Positions 28,007-33,149 of a stretch of DNA of 64,000 nt are shown one piece after another. The DNA comes from Natrarchaeobaculum aegyptiacum (GTDB lineage Archaea > Halobacteriota > Halobacteria > Halobacteriales > Natrialbaceae), in NCBI RefSeq assembly GCF_002156705.1, contig NZ_CP019893.1:434001-498000 (forward strand), in the 5' to 3' direction. The stretch's first letter is position 1. Each line of letters begins with the position of its first letter. Made by a program: the position numbers and the translations under genes. The notes beneath the pieces were generated by a model. The model had not been told where the DNA came from. It did no database searches and worked only from the letters and a program-made list of their open reading frames with translations.

Positions 28007-28762
28007 ATGCAGGGACAAGCCCAACAGCAGGCGTACGACCGCGGCATCACGATCTTCTCACCTGACGGCCGGCTCTACCAGGTCGAGTACGCTCGCGAGG
28101 CGGTCAAACGCGGTACAGCGAGTATCGGCATTCGAACCACCGACGGCGTCGTTCTCGCCGTCGACAAACGCGTTCCATCACCGCTTCTCGAGGACTCGAG
28201 CGTCGAGAAGATCCACAAGGCCGACGACCACATCGGGATCGCAAGCGCCGGCCACGTCGCCGACGCTCGCCAGCTGATCGACTTCGCCCGACGGCAGGCG
28301 CAGGTCAACCAGCTCCGGTACGGTGAACCGGTTGGCGTCGAAACACTTACCAAGCAAGTCACCGACCACATCCAGCAGTACACGCAGGTCGGCGGTGCCC
28401 GCCCGTTCGGTGTTGCGCTGATCGTCGGCGGCATCGAGAACGGCGAGCCGCGCCTGTTCGAGACCGACCCCTCGGGGACTCCCTACGAGTGGAAGGCCCT
28501 CGCCGTCGGTGCCGACCGGAACGAACTCCAGGAGTACCTCGAAGAGAACTACGACGACGAGGCCGACCTTGACGGTGGCATCGGTCTCGCCCTCGACGCC
28601 CTCGCGTCGGTCAACGACGGATCGTTGCTCCCCAGCGAAGTGGGGCTCGCCACCGTCGACGCCGAGACCGAATCGTTCGAACAGTTCGACCAGGACCGTA
28701 TCGCCGAACACCTCGAGGAGAACGACCTGCTCGAGGAGGAAGGCGAGGAAGACGCGGAATAA
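28007..28762 (+). CDS. psmA: 20S proteasome alpha subunit
   Basis: Forms the outer heptameric rings of the 20S proteasome and gates substrate entry. The 251-residue protein has the alpha-type N-terminal gate ([31 protein letters not shown] at 10-12), the GTASIGIR strand and the conserved SAGHVADAR segment. It lacks the catalytic N-terminal threonine, as expected for an alpha subunit. The C-terminus is very acidic. Haloarchaea usually carry a second alpha paralogue; the QQQAYDRG N-terminus fits PsmA1-like. The SBDS gene lies 118 bp downstream in the same direction, a conserved archaeal neighbourhood. Confidence 0.95.
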
Positions 28763-28880: not shown

Positions 28881-29606
28881 ATGATATCACTCGACGAGGC
28901 AGTGACGGCGCGACTCGAGTCACACGGGGCCCGCTTCGAGGTGCTCGTCGACCCCGACGCAGCCCTGTCGATCAAACGCGGCGAGTTCGACGGCGACCTG
29001 GAAGACGTCATCGCCGCAGAAGACGTCTTCGAGGACGCGTCCCGTGGCGACCGGCCTGCAGAGAACGACCTCGAGACGGTCTTCGACACCACGGACCCAC
29101 TCGAGATCATCCCCGAGGTTATCAGAGAGGGGGAGATCCAGATCACGGCCGAACAGCGCCGAGAGATGCAAGAACAAAAGCGCAAACAGTTGATCGACAC
29201 CATCGCGCGCAACGCGATCAACCCCCAGATGGACGACGCCCCCCACCCGCCCGAGCGGATCGAGAACGCCCTCGAGGAGGCGGGCTTTACGGTCGATCCG
29301 ATGGAGCCGGTCGAGGGGCAAGTCGACGACGCCCTCGACGCGTTGCGGCCCGTGATCCCGATTCGGTTCGAGGAAGTTACCATCGCGGTACAGGTCCCTG
29401 CCGAGTACGCGGGTAGCGCCCAGTCCCAGATCCGGCAGTTTGGTGACCTCGAGCGCGAGGAGTGGCAATCCGACGGTTCGTGGATCGGCGTCATTACCTT
29501 CCCCGCGGGAATGCAAAACGACTTCTACGACGTGGTCAACGAGTACTCGAGCGGGGAGGCCGAGACGCAACTCGTCAAGGACAAAGACGACATCAAGACG
29601 CGCTGA
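28881..29606 (+). CDS. Ribosome maturation protein SBDS homologue
   Basis: A 241-residue protein of the SBDS family, which in archaea and eukaryotes helps late large-subunit ribosome maturation. Three domains are visible in order: the N-terminal FYSH-like domain (about 1-90), the central helical domain (about 95-165, with [20 protein letters not shown] and RNAINPQ), and the C-terminal ferredoxin-like domain (about 170-241). RNAINPQ.. and [11 protein letters not shown] are family signatures. The neighbourhood with the proteasome alpha gene is conserved in archaea. Confidence 0.92.
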
Positions 29607-29883
29607 CGTCGTCTTCGGCGTCGACCGTGCGCTGTTGACCAGTTCACCGGCTCTCGGCTAGCTGCGTCTCCTCGGGCGATCCTGGTACCGTTCCAACCGT
29701 CGACTGATGAGTGAAACCAGTCACTCGCTCTCGGTTTCACTCACCAGTTCAGGCCTGGACCGCCACTGGGACGTGCGTCGTCTGCCAGTAGACGAGCTCG
29801 TATCGCACAATCATTCACGTCTGCTGCCGATCAATTCACCAACTTCGAAATAATTTTCAACTGCACGACAGCATACTGGATCG
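29607..29883. other. Spacer between SBDS and membrane protein gene
   Basis: Non-coding. It contains an inverted repeat of gtgaaacc(a) and (t)ggtttcac around 29710-29742, with the loop cactcgctct, a good stem that may end the SBDS transcript. An AT-rich stretch, gaaataattttcaact (29847-29862), lies about 25-35 nt before the next ATG and is its probable promoter. Confidence 0.5.
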
Positions 29884-31593
29884 ATGGAGCTACCGGATAT
29901 TGTCGTCGGGATCGGCGGACTCGGTGGGGTGCTCGTTGGACTGTACGCGCTCTCGAGGGCCACTGCCACGGTCGGACGACGTGTCGGTAGGTCGGAACAA
30001 CGACAGAAGACGCTGACAGTGTACGCGCGGATCGGGGTGCTGGCCGTCGGCATCGCTCTCGCATGGACTCTGTATACGATGTATCCGGTCTTCGAGCCGA
30101 TCGTCGCTGTGCTTGAGCCCGACGGGTGGTGGATCGGTCGACCGCTCGGTCACGGAGTCGGGCTGGGGGTCGTCGCACTCGCCGCGATCTGGGCCGTCAA
30201 GCGCGGTACCGATCCGACGATCGAGGACGTGCTTGACCAGCAGCATACAGTCCCAGCACGGTACCGTCGTCGGCTCTGGACCGCCCACGCACTGTTCGTC
30301 GTTGGTACGCCAGTGGTGCTGCTCACGCTGTATGCCGCCGGATTCGGGTCCGTCTGGACCGTCGTGGCGTTTTACGTGCTCGTCCTGTGCTGGTTCGTAC
30401 TCAGAACGCCGCTCGTGTCGTTCGCGTATCGAACGCGAGATCCGACGGCTGAAGAACGATCGCGACTCGAGCGCTGTTTCGATCGATTCGGTCGCGAGCC
30501 ACCGACGGTCGTCGTCTTCGACGATCGACACGAGAACCTCGACGTCAAACTCGTCGGTCACAGCGCGTACCGGACCCTGTGGATACAGGAGTCGCTACTC
30601 TCGAGTACCGACGAGGCGGAACTCGCGGCGATCCTCGGCGCAGAAGACGAGAAGAATCGCCGATACTTCTACGAACAGTGTTACCTCGCGGTTGCACCCG
30701 TGCTGTTCATGGTGACCGCACTGATCCTCATTCTCGGGGAACTGCTGTTCGTGTCGGAGTTCACCGTAGATTCTGCGTCCACCCTCGTCTGGTTCACCAG
30801 CATCGGTTTCGCGTTCGTCGGCATCCTCGCTGTGAGCCAGACCTCGAGATGGACGATCTACCGGGCGGATCGGTTCGTGAGCTCACACGTCGATCCCGAC
30901 GTCGTTCGGCGCGCGTACGACCGATACGCACAGACGATCACGACGATCGATCAGGAGCAGACCCGGAGTGGATTGAGCAAGCGTCTCACCATCGAACCAC
31001 CGATGGAGCAGCGAATCCGACGGCTCGAACGGGCGAATTCGCTCGAGCCGATGCCCCGGACTGCCCGCGAGCCTGAGTCGAGCGAGGTAGAGACGCCTGC
31101 TGAAGCAGCCGGTTCGAACGGAACAGTCGCCTCAGATGACGTGGAACCGACGCCGAACGCGCCGCCGGCGGACTGGGATTCTCGCGAGCACCACCCGATC
31201 CAGCAGGCGCTCGCGTCGATAGATCGACGGGAGTTCGCGGACGTCGTTGCGCGACTTCGAGGCGAATTTGGCCGGGAGTGTACGGTAGCCGAGGCAGACG
31301 AGTCAGACTGGATCGACGTCGTCGCCCGATCGACAGACGGTACGACTGAATTGCTCCGAACGGTTCACAGACGAACCGACGACCCAGTAACACCCGATGA
31401 GATCACCGACGAACGCGGTCGGATCGTCAGTGGCCGATCGGTCGAGACAGTACTGGTGGTCACCAACGGTCGTTTCGACGACCGCGTCGACCGGCTGGCG
31501 GCCGACCTGACGCTCGTCGACGGGCAACGACTCACCGAGTTACTCGAGGACAGTGCTCTCGCGGACGAACTGGGCGCATCGGCGGCCGAGTAA
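29884..31593 (+). CDS. Membrane protein: inactive M48-like domain fused to an Mrr-like domain
   Basis: A 569-residue fusion. Hydrophobic spans lie at about 6-24, 45-68, 86-105, 132-152, 155-175, 265-291 and 299-317. Between spans the sequence follows M48 metallopeptidases (VVVFDDRHENLD, then TDEAELAAILGAEDEKNRRYF). However, the zinc site HExxH is replaced by GAEDE (252-256), and the third-ligand region (HtpX-type EYLAD) reads IYRAD (325-329). A linker (390-435) leads to a C-terminal domain (about 445-555) with the restriction-endonuclease-like order DWIDVVAR, TELLRTVHRR, VETVLVVTNGRFDD and LVDGQRLTELL. There the usual (E/Q)xK is TVH (493-495). Both enzymatic sites thus look dead. Function is unknown; it may be a scaffold or sensor at the membrane. 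Confidence 0.75.
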   Translation: MELPDIVVGIGGLGGVLVGLYALSRATATVGRRVGRSEQRQKTLTVYARIGVLAVGIALAWTLYTMYPVFEPIVAVLEPDGWWIGRPLGHGVGLGVVALAAIWAVKRGTDPTIEDVLDQQHTVPARYRRRLWTAHALFVVGTPVVLLTLYAAGFGSVWTVVAFYVLVLCWFVLRTPLVSFAYRTRDPTAEERSRLERCFDRFGREPPTVVVFDDRHENLDVKLVGHSAYRTLWIQESLLSSTDEAELAAILGAEDEKNRRYFYEQCYLAVAPVLFMVTALILILGELLFVSEFTVDSASTLVWFTSIGFAFVGILAVSQTSRWTIYRADRFVSSHVDPDVVRRAYDRYAQTITTIDQEQTRSGLSKRLTIEPPMEQRIRRLERANSLEPMPRTAREPESSEVETPAEAAGSNGTVASDDVEPTPNAPPADWDSREHHPIQQALASIDRREFADVVARLRGEFGRECTVAEADESDWIDVVARSTDGTTELLRTVHRRTDDPVTPDEITDERGRIVSGRSVETVLVVTNGRFDDRVDRLAADLTLVDGQRLTELLEDSALADELGASAAE

Positions 31594-31844
31594 CTCGAGT
31601 CGCCACGGGATTCAAGGTCACCCGCCACCTAGATGAGCGTATGATCGTGATCGAACCAGCGGAGGTGAACGGCCGCCACCCCGAACGTGTCGCGTGAACG
31701 ACCGACGGGCGCTGTGCCCGCTGACCGGCAGGCCCACACCCCGAACAGTATCGACGCTGTCCCGGACAGCAGTGAGCGGCCACAGTTTCGAGACAGCAGT
31801 GATAAGTCCCGAGCGCGAGCGCGCTCACGCGTGGAGATGACGCT
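31594..31844. other. Spacer upstream of hflX
   Basis: 251 bp without a convincing gene. The spacer starts right after the fusion gene and ends at the hflX ATG; no strong TATA box is seen close to the start. Confidence 0.4.
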
Positions 31845-33149
31845 ATGAGGGCGATCGTCGCGAAACGGGTCGACTCGGGAGAACCAGACACCGAGGAGAT
31901 CCACGACCTCGCCGCGGCCGCGGGCTACGAGGTCGTCGGCGAAGTAACCCAGACCCGGCGAGCCGATCCCGCGCTCCAGCTGGGTGAGGGGAAGGCGAAC
32001 GAACTCGCCGAAAAAGTGGCGATGGCCGACGCCACGACCGTGATCTTCGACAATCGGCTCGGTCCCTACCAGACGTACAATCTGGGTCAGCTTCTACCAG
32101 AGGGCGTCGAGGTGATCGACCGCTTTACACTTATCCTCGAGATCTTCGGGCAGCGGGCCCAGACGCGCAAGGCCCAGTTGCAGGTCGAACTCGCGGAACT
32201 GCGGTACGAACTGCCCCGGGTCGAGGCCAAGACCAGCCTCGCGAAGCGTGACGAACATCCCGGGTTCATGGGGCTCGGTGAGTACGACGAGAGCCGCGAG
32301 CAGGACATCAAGGCCCAGATCAGCCGGATCAAGGACGAGCTCGCCCAGATCGAGCAGACCGAGCAACACCGCCGGGAACGCCGCCGGGATTCCGGGTTCG
32401 ACCTCGTCGCGCTGGCGGGCTACACCAACGCCGGCAAGTCGACTCTCCTGCGGCGGCTCTCGACCGACCTCGAGATCGACGAGAACGAGGACCTGCACCC
32501 GGACCTCGAGTCGACTGCAGAATCCGAGGATCGGCTGTTCACGACACTCGGGACGACGACCCGGCGAGCCGATATCGAACCGCGGGACGTGCTGGTGACC
32601 GACACCGTCGGGTTCATCAGCGACCTCCCGCACTGGCTCGTCGAGTCGTTCAAGTCCACGCTGGAGTCGGTCTACCGCGCGGATCTCGTGTTGCTCGTCG
32701 TCGACGTGAGCGAACCGGTTGCAGACATCCACGAGAAGCTCGTCACCAGTCACGACACGCTCTACGAGCGCAACGAGGCACCGATTGTGACCGTTCTCAA
32801 CAAGATCGACCGGGTCGACGACGAGGAACTCGCCGAGAAGGAAGCGGCGCTCTCGGCGCTCGCGCCGGATCCAGTGTCAGTCAGTGCGAAAGAAGGGACG
32901 AACGTCGACGACCTCCTCGAGCGCATCGACGAGGAGTTACCCGACTGGGAGGACGAACGGCTCGTCCTGCCGATGACCGACGAGACGATGAGCCTGGTCT
33001 CGTGGATCCACGACAACGCGAACGTCGAGGACGTCACCTACGGCGACGAGGACGTCCTCGTCTCCTTCGAAGCCAGACCGGCGATCATCTCGAGGGCCCG
33101 GTCGCGGGCGAGCGAACTGGCGACCACCGCGGCGGAGTCGGCCGACTGA
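31845..33149 (+). CDS. hflX: Ribosome-associated GTPase HflX
   Basis: A 434-residue GTPase that in other organisms binds and splits ribosomes under stress. It has the HflX N-terminal domain (about 1-180, with the glycine-rich LGEGKANELAEK and FDNRLGPYQTYNL), a coiled-coil segment (ISRIKDELAQIEQTEQHRRERRR, about 159-182), and the GTPase domain with G1 GYTNAGKST (about 193-201), G3 DTVGF and G4 NKID. The C-terminal ~70 residues form the small extra domain seen in archaeal HflX. The nearest downstream gene is the importer operon, which has its own promoter. Confidence 0.93.
   Translation: MRAIVAKRVDSGEPDTEEIHDLAAAAGYEVVGEVTQTRRADPALQLGEGKANELAEKVAMADATTVIFDNRLGPYQTYNLGQLLPEGVEVIDRFTLILEIFGQRAQTRKAQLQVELAELRYELPRVEAKTSLAKRDEHPGFMGLGEYDESREQDIKAQISRIKDELAQIEQTEQHRRERRRDSGFDLVALAGYTNAGKSTLLRRLSTDLEIDENEDLHPDLESTAESEDRLFTTLGTTTRRADIEPRDVLVTDTVGFISDLPHWLVESFKSTLESVYRADLVLLVVDVSEPVADIHEKLVTSHDTLYERNEAPIVTVLNKIDRVDDEELAEKEAALSALAPDPVSVSAKEGTNVDDLLERIDEELPDWEDERLVLPMTDETMSLVSWIHDNANVEDVTYGDEDVLVSFEARPAIISRARSRASELATTAAESAD

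Follow-up and report, generated by a model that had tools for sequence, protein, structure and literature searches.

A haloarchaeal membrane protein joining an M48-like and an Mrr-like domain, both without their catalytic residues

The gene and its surroundings

The window, a 64,000-nucleotide stretch of the Natrarchaeobaculum aegyptiacum genome, carries on its forward strand an open reading frame (29884-31593) that encodes 569 residues from an ATG start, was also called as a gene by codon-usage scoring, and has orthologues in other genera according to a search for relatives. It lies at position 463884 of the 3.93-Mb genome, which is a single contig. The features of the gene and its flanks are as follows.

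28007-28762: proteasome alpha, upstream of SBDS
28881..29606, + strand: SBDS, the conserved upstream flank, outside the fusion (Pfam, synteny)
29884..31593, + strand: whole gene, pseudo-M48/pseudo-Mrr fusion with seven TM helices, 569 aa (ORF, codon usage, orthologues)
29899..30402, + strand: five N-terminal TM helices, residues 6-24, 52-70, 84-102, 136-154 and 155-173 (hydropathy, model helices)
30271..31038, + strand: M48-like domain, residues 130-385, including TM6 (266-284) and TM7 (299-317) (hhalign, M48 profile, fold matches)
30640..30654, + strand: HExxH site, here A253-E-D-E-K257, both zinc His gone (alignment)
30856..30870, + strand: ExxxD site, here I325-Y-R-A-D329, third zinc ligand Glu lost and structural Asp kept (alignment)
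30994..31023, + strand: M48 'HPP..RI..L' site, here E371-PPMEQRI-R-R380, His lost and scaffold P/R kept (alignment)
31039..31188, + strand: low-complexity acidic linker, residues ~386-435, disordered, pLDDT ~30 (structure model)
31189..31575, + strand: Mrr_cat / PD-(D/E)XK-like domain, residues ~436-564 (Pfam, AF2, fold search)
31315..31317, + strand: D478, the nuclease motif's metal-binding Asp, still present (Mrr alignment)
31357..31365, + strand: QxK site, here R492-T-V494, catalytic Lys lost (Mrr alignment)
31845..33149, + strand: HflX GTPase, the conserved downstream flank, outside the fusion (Pfam, synteny)

The gene occupies the junction between SBDS and HflX, downstream of proteasome alpha, in three genera (the window species, Salinadaptatus and Halopiger), and in the window it is set off from its flanks by gaps at 29607-29883 and 31594-31844. 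In most other Natrialbaceae examined the junction holds no such gene, with 245-1030 bases between SBDS and HflX, while the remaining fusions are found at other loci, in Natrinema next to a short gene that by eye is eIF5A-like. Pfam-scanned genes of the window are housekeeping, transport or unassigned; the neighbours comprise proteasome alpha, SBDS, HflX, a periplasmic-binding-type ABC transporter, an acyl-CoA-synthetase-like protein, a thiolase and uncharacterised proteins. About 30 bases before the ATG, at window positions 29846-29858, we noticed by eye a TATA-like AT-rich stretch (cgaaataattttc), which would fit a leaderless transcript of the fusion gene's own.

Hydropathy and loop charges predict seven TM helices for the protein, with the N-terminus outside and both the M48-like and the Mrr-like domains in the cytosol. 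Membrane anchoring, as the earlier note on this DNA had proposed, is thus borne out by hydropathy, and the helices also appear in the structure model.

Two enzyme folds and their lost active sites

The same note had read the membrane half as an M48 fold. Against the single window sequence the Pfam M48 model gave only E=0.036 (14.3 bits, below the cut-off of 20.3), so that recognition required a stronger test. When a pseudo-M48 profile of 18 haloarchaeal relatives was compared by hhalign with one built from 14 genuine HtpX-type M48 proteins of haloarchaea, the two aligned over 235 columns with 99.0% probability and E=4e-18, and the genuine M48 profile matched residues 131-382 of the window protein at E=2.3e-7. 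Searches against solved structures agreed: the family profile matched Ste24p (E=0.0038), and a fold search with the model of the window protein matched ZMPSTE24, Ste24, BlaR1, BepA and HtpX. Because the model of this half is of low confidence (pLDDT ~60, built from five sequences), the M48 claim rests on sequence evidence. TM6 and TM7 lie between the two helices that hold the HExxH and ExxxD sites, which is the membrane topology of M48. As judged from the profile comparisons, the descent of the membrane half from M48 can be regarded as firm.

Alignment with a true M48 protease (L025) sets HEFGH...EFQAD...HPPIADRI against AEDEK...IYRAD...EPPMEQRI in the window protein, which has neither the HExxH motif nor the third-ligand Glu of an active protease. 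The earlier note was right that HExxH is lost, although its reading of the site, GAEDE, began one residue early, the aligned site being A253-E254-D255-E256-K257; its IYRAD in the third-ligand region is I325-Y-R-A-D329, as claimed. Among 98 distinct class-wide relatives only one, L025 itself, has HExxH; the motif is restored in none of the pseudo-family members read, and the Glu ligand of ExxxD is replaced throughout the pseudo-M48 relatives. The Asp of ExxxD was present in all 133 rows covering the column (duplicates included). From these alignments the loss of the M48 motifs is, in our reading, old and lineage-wide rather than local. A local mutation or a sequencing artefact is ruled out, as the catalytic residues are missing from all fused relatives.

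The C-terminal tail matched Pfam PF04471 (E=5.5e-7, 30.1 bits, above the cut-off of 21), in line with the earlier assignment of an Mrr-like domain, and its terminal LVDGQRLTELL corresponds to the conserved last beta-alpha of Mrr_cat. An AF2 model of residues 433-564 (pLDDT 83, pTM 0.80) has the order alpha-beta-beta-beta-alpha-beta. The Mrr profile found nothing among solved structures by sequence, but the fold search did, the nearest structures being AF1548 (Z 13.3), AspBHI (11.5) and MspJI (11.2), so that the PD-(D/E)xK fold looked for by the earlier note is present.

We compared the five fused domains with 26 distinct unfused haloarchaeal Mrr proteins. The motif Asp (D478 in the window protein) is kept by all fused (5/5) and all free (26/26) domains. 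The position of the catalytic Lys reads V, V, L, I and I in the five fused domains, all of which have also lost the alpha-1 Glu, whereas the unfused relatives retain both residues (L155, misregistered at the motif, reads VECK, which is ExK). Of the D...(Q/E)xK pattern of an active nuclease the window protein thus has the Asp, with RTV in place of QxK. The TVH given by the earlier note for this site lies one residue late, the aligned site being R492-T493-V494; the Lys is gone as it stated, and QxK is restored in none of the five fused homologues. As aligned and modelled, the tail represents a degenerated Mrr domain of restriction-endonuclease (REase) fold, its catalytic Lys lost in all fusions.

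Relatives, origin and selection

At E<=1e-5 the pseudo-M48 profile had matches in 255 of the 391 Halobacteria genomes; this count sets a ceiling on the pseudo-family, since the weakest matches may be active M48 proteins. Outside Halobacteria the matches were few and weak. This is a widespread and seemingly undescribed haloarchaeal family, most members of which have no nuclease domain. In the genome that holds the window another pseudo-M48 gene lies at 2952746, and six places match the Pfam M48 model at E<=1e-8, so the organism is not devoid of M48 peptidases. No active M48 gene was found in flanks of ~1.5-2 kb on each side of pseudo-M48 loci; a conserved protease-pseudoprotease operon is therefore not seen. 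A 166-kb contig of a congener (L216:4127-14988) has three active M48 genes no more than 10 kb from two pseudo-M48 genes, one of which is split into two ORFs. Two members without HExxH (L093:2009-4057 and L106:2006-3775) nevertheless attain the cut-off of the Pfam M48 model and might be labelled proteases in annotation, so databases may misname such proteins.

Relatives of the window protein itself are patchily distributed. Those of full or near-full length are G118 (46%), G011 (53-55%, tail-less), G097 (34%), and G051 and G059 (~28-33%). The window protein alone as query found no related loci in the genome contigs; a search with the fusion-clade alignment matched Salinadaptatus halalkaliphilus, Halopiger goleimassiliensis, Natronolimnohabitans innermongolicus and Natrinema ejinorense. 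Plasmids yielded a single match, distant and partial, in Salinirubellus. Four subgroup members away from the SBDS-HflX site (L034, L038, L035 and L036) stand beside what by eye are translation or transcription housekeeping genes (eIF2 gamma/Rpo7/Spt4-like, eIF5A-like).

Two proteins of the same pseudo-M48 subgroup (L115:1440-3122 and L034:5222-8425) lack the Mrr domain and instead have at their C-terminus a 3-TM module (WPxxxxxYLWRR) whose usual place is behind active Mrr nuclease domains of haloarchaea, as phmmer (E=2e-10 for L115) and alignment showed. This module is present in 5/21 genomes at 1-3 per genome, so its sharing is unlikely to be trivial; it suggests that pseudo-M48 and Mrr proteins share a functional setting.

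All fused Mrr domains fall into one clade (bootstrap/SH-aLRT 97/94), and in the M48 tree the fused proteins group together with the tail-less Halopiger protein; the simplest account is that the Mrr domain was gained once and lost once, in Halopiger. Two separate origins of the fusion are unsupported, given the monophyly of the fused Mrr domains and the position of the tail-less protein inside the fusion group on the M48 tree. Between the two Natrinema copies dN/dS was 0.30 for the Mrr domain (95% bootstrap range 0.17-0.63) and 0.41 for the M48 part; between the window gene and that of Salinadaptatus it was 0.23 and 0.35, respectively, with dS above 1, and over the comparisons the M48 half ranged from 0.33 to 0.41. 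Values well below 1 in both halves indicate purifying selection rather than decay, and the dead Mrr domain is the most constrained part of the fusion protein. The reading frame of the Natrinema ejinorense fusion L134:4677-6461 (also L007) seems to shift within the N-terminal TM part, which means a pseudogene or a sequencing error.

Possible function and comparison with known systems

As both catalytic sites are lost yet selection is maintained, the protein is probably a binding or sensing device, not an enzyme. We tentatively propose, as something a little short of probable, that it is a membrane pseudoprotease acting as adaptor or sensor, with a pseudo-nuclease sensor domain and no catalysis. 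The M48 half would still have its peptide-binding groove and its membrane chamber, and would hold, shield or pass on a protein instead of cutting it; that protein may be a membrane protein that has misfolded, or a partner, for instance active HtpX or LonB, a membrane AAA+ protease. Haloferax has LonB as an AAA+ protease anchored in the membrane and HtpX as a protease linked to stress (PMC9263693), which would make them natural candidate partners; no protease partner is encoded among the conserved neighbours, and in nearly all relatives that lack the fusion gene proteasome alpha likewise adjoins SBDS and HflX. The cytosolic dead Mrr domain, with its one metal-binding Asp, may bind nucleic acid, a nucleotide or a divalent metal, and ligand binding would then set when the membrane half acts.

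Next in standing, and in our judgement rather unlikely, is a role in conflict, with the dead Mrr domain recognising foreign or modified DNA, or intercepting nuclease inhibitors as a decoy, and the membrane half relaying or executing the response. A role as nucleotide sensor or decoy has been put forward for inactive REases in BREX-related systems (PMC12839542), candidate defence models (PDC-S02, ZorD, Type IV REases) are matched by the free Mrr relatives of haloarchaea, and the 3-TM module behind active Mrr nucleases recurs in the pseudo-M48 subgroup; the protein also evolves fast, at 45-52% identity where its neighbours have 87-95%. The 'defence-derived sensor' of the earlier note stands to the extent that candidate defence proteins contain nucleases related to the Mrr domain. 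The window protein itself, however, is no member of PDC-S02 or Zorya ZorD, as it matches PDC-S02 in the Mrr region alone, over positions 229-359 of that protein's 390; the Pfam scan of window genes and the relatives' loci gave no recognised defence gene near the fusion gene, and the surroundings are not those of a known defence system. The housekeeping junction, syntenic in three genera, the mostly nuclease-free pseudo-M48 family and the lack of relatives in the viral contigs and phage records searched also speak against defence.

We consider it improbable that the dead nuclease still binds DNA and so anchors DNA or nucleoprotein at the membrane. The fold, whose nearest structures cleave DNA, and the predicted cytosolic position of the tail would suit such a tether, but the catalytic Q/K motif is gone, the conserved M48 fold is left unexplained, and the tail is strongly acidic (pI 4.5), the last a weak point given that acidity is common in haloarchaea. 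That the Mrr tail or the whole gene is a functionless, decaying remnant we judge decidedly improbable: the tail loss at the same locus in Halopiger, the apparent frameshift in Natrinema ejinorense and the patchy distribution would fit, but dN/dS, lowest in the Mrr domain, disfavours it, frames are open in 4/5 fusions, and D478 and other conserved residues are kept in 5/5. Residual catalysis through relocated or unusual residues is highly improbable, for although E254 aligns with the Glu of HExxH and D478 with the nuclease Asp, the M48 half has no zinc ligand at all and the aligned Lys is aliphatic in 5/5 fusions.

Our literature search found no paper on any family of M48 pseudoproteases and no description of an archaeal one or of an M48/Mrr fusion, absence being weak evidence; as far as that search reached, the earlier statement that no described family has this combination holds. 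Both folds and the pseudoenzyme principle are known, and rhomboid pseudoproteases (iRhoms, Derlins) are well known; the pseudo-M48 family and the fusion appear to be undescribed. A zinc-ligand-free M48 chamber in many haloarchaeal genomes would be a natural experiment on the roles of a chamber that does not cut, and the fusion retains two independent enzyme folds in one chain after loss of catalysis, which makes a 'sensor plus adaptor' directly testable in genetically tractable archaea.

With M48 proteins (HtpX, Ste24/ZMPSTE24; PF01435) the window protein shares the fold, the inter-motif TM helices, the ExxxD Asp and the PP..RI..L scaffold; unlike them it lacks HExxH, the Glu ligand and the HP histidine, scores below the Pfam cut-off and has the Mrr-like tail in addition. 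The tail shares profile, fold order and motif Asp with Mrr_cat (PF04471), including haloarchaeal zinc-ribbon/Mrr/3-TM proteins, but the fused versions have lost the catalytic Lys and alpha-1 Glu and are joined to a pseudoprotease. A degenerate REase fold has also been proposed as a sensor in the inactive REases of BREX-related helicases and NACHT proteins (NA-iREase1, PF22722; PMC12839542), a model that free haloarchaeal Mrr relatives match; those domains sit with NTPases in defence operons, whereas the window domain sits with a membrane pseudoprotease at a housekeeping locus.

The closest parallel in organisation is YqgP of Bacillus subtilis, a rhomboid protease whose cytosolic domain, built on a type II restriction endonuclease-like core, binds Mn and Zn and is needed for the protease-independent hand-over of MgtE to FtsH (PMC7231995). 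Both proteins would combine a polytopic, protease-type membrane half in an adaptor role with a cytosolic REase-fold domain in one chain. YqgP differs in that it is a rhomboid rather than M48 and an active protease too, with its domain at the opposite end and no demonstrable homology. As the YqgP domain gave a weak structural match to the whole model (Z 6.8) and was missing from the domain-only match list, we set kinship aside and keep YqgP as a functional analogy. It is conceivable, if on balance doubtful, that archaeal pseudoproteases serve more generally as membrane quality-control adaptors, one lineage of which gained a dead REase as a ligand sensor in parallel to YqgP.
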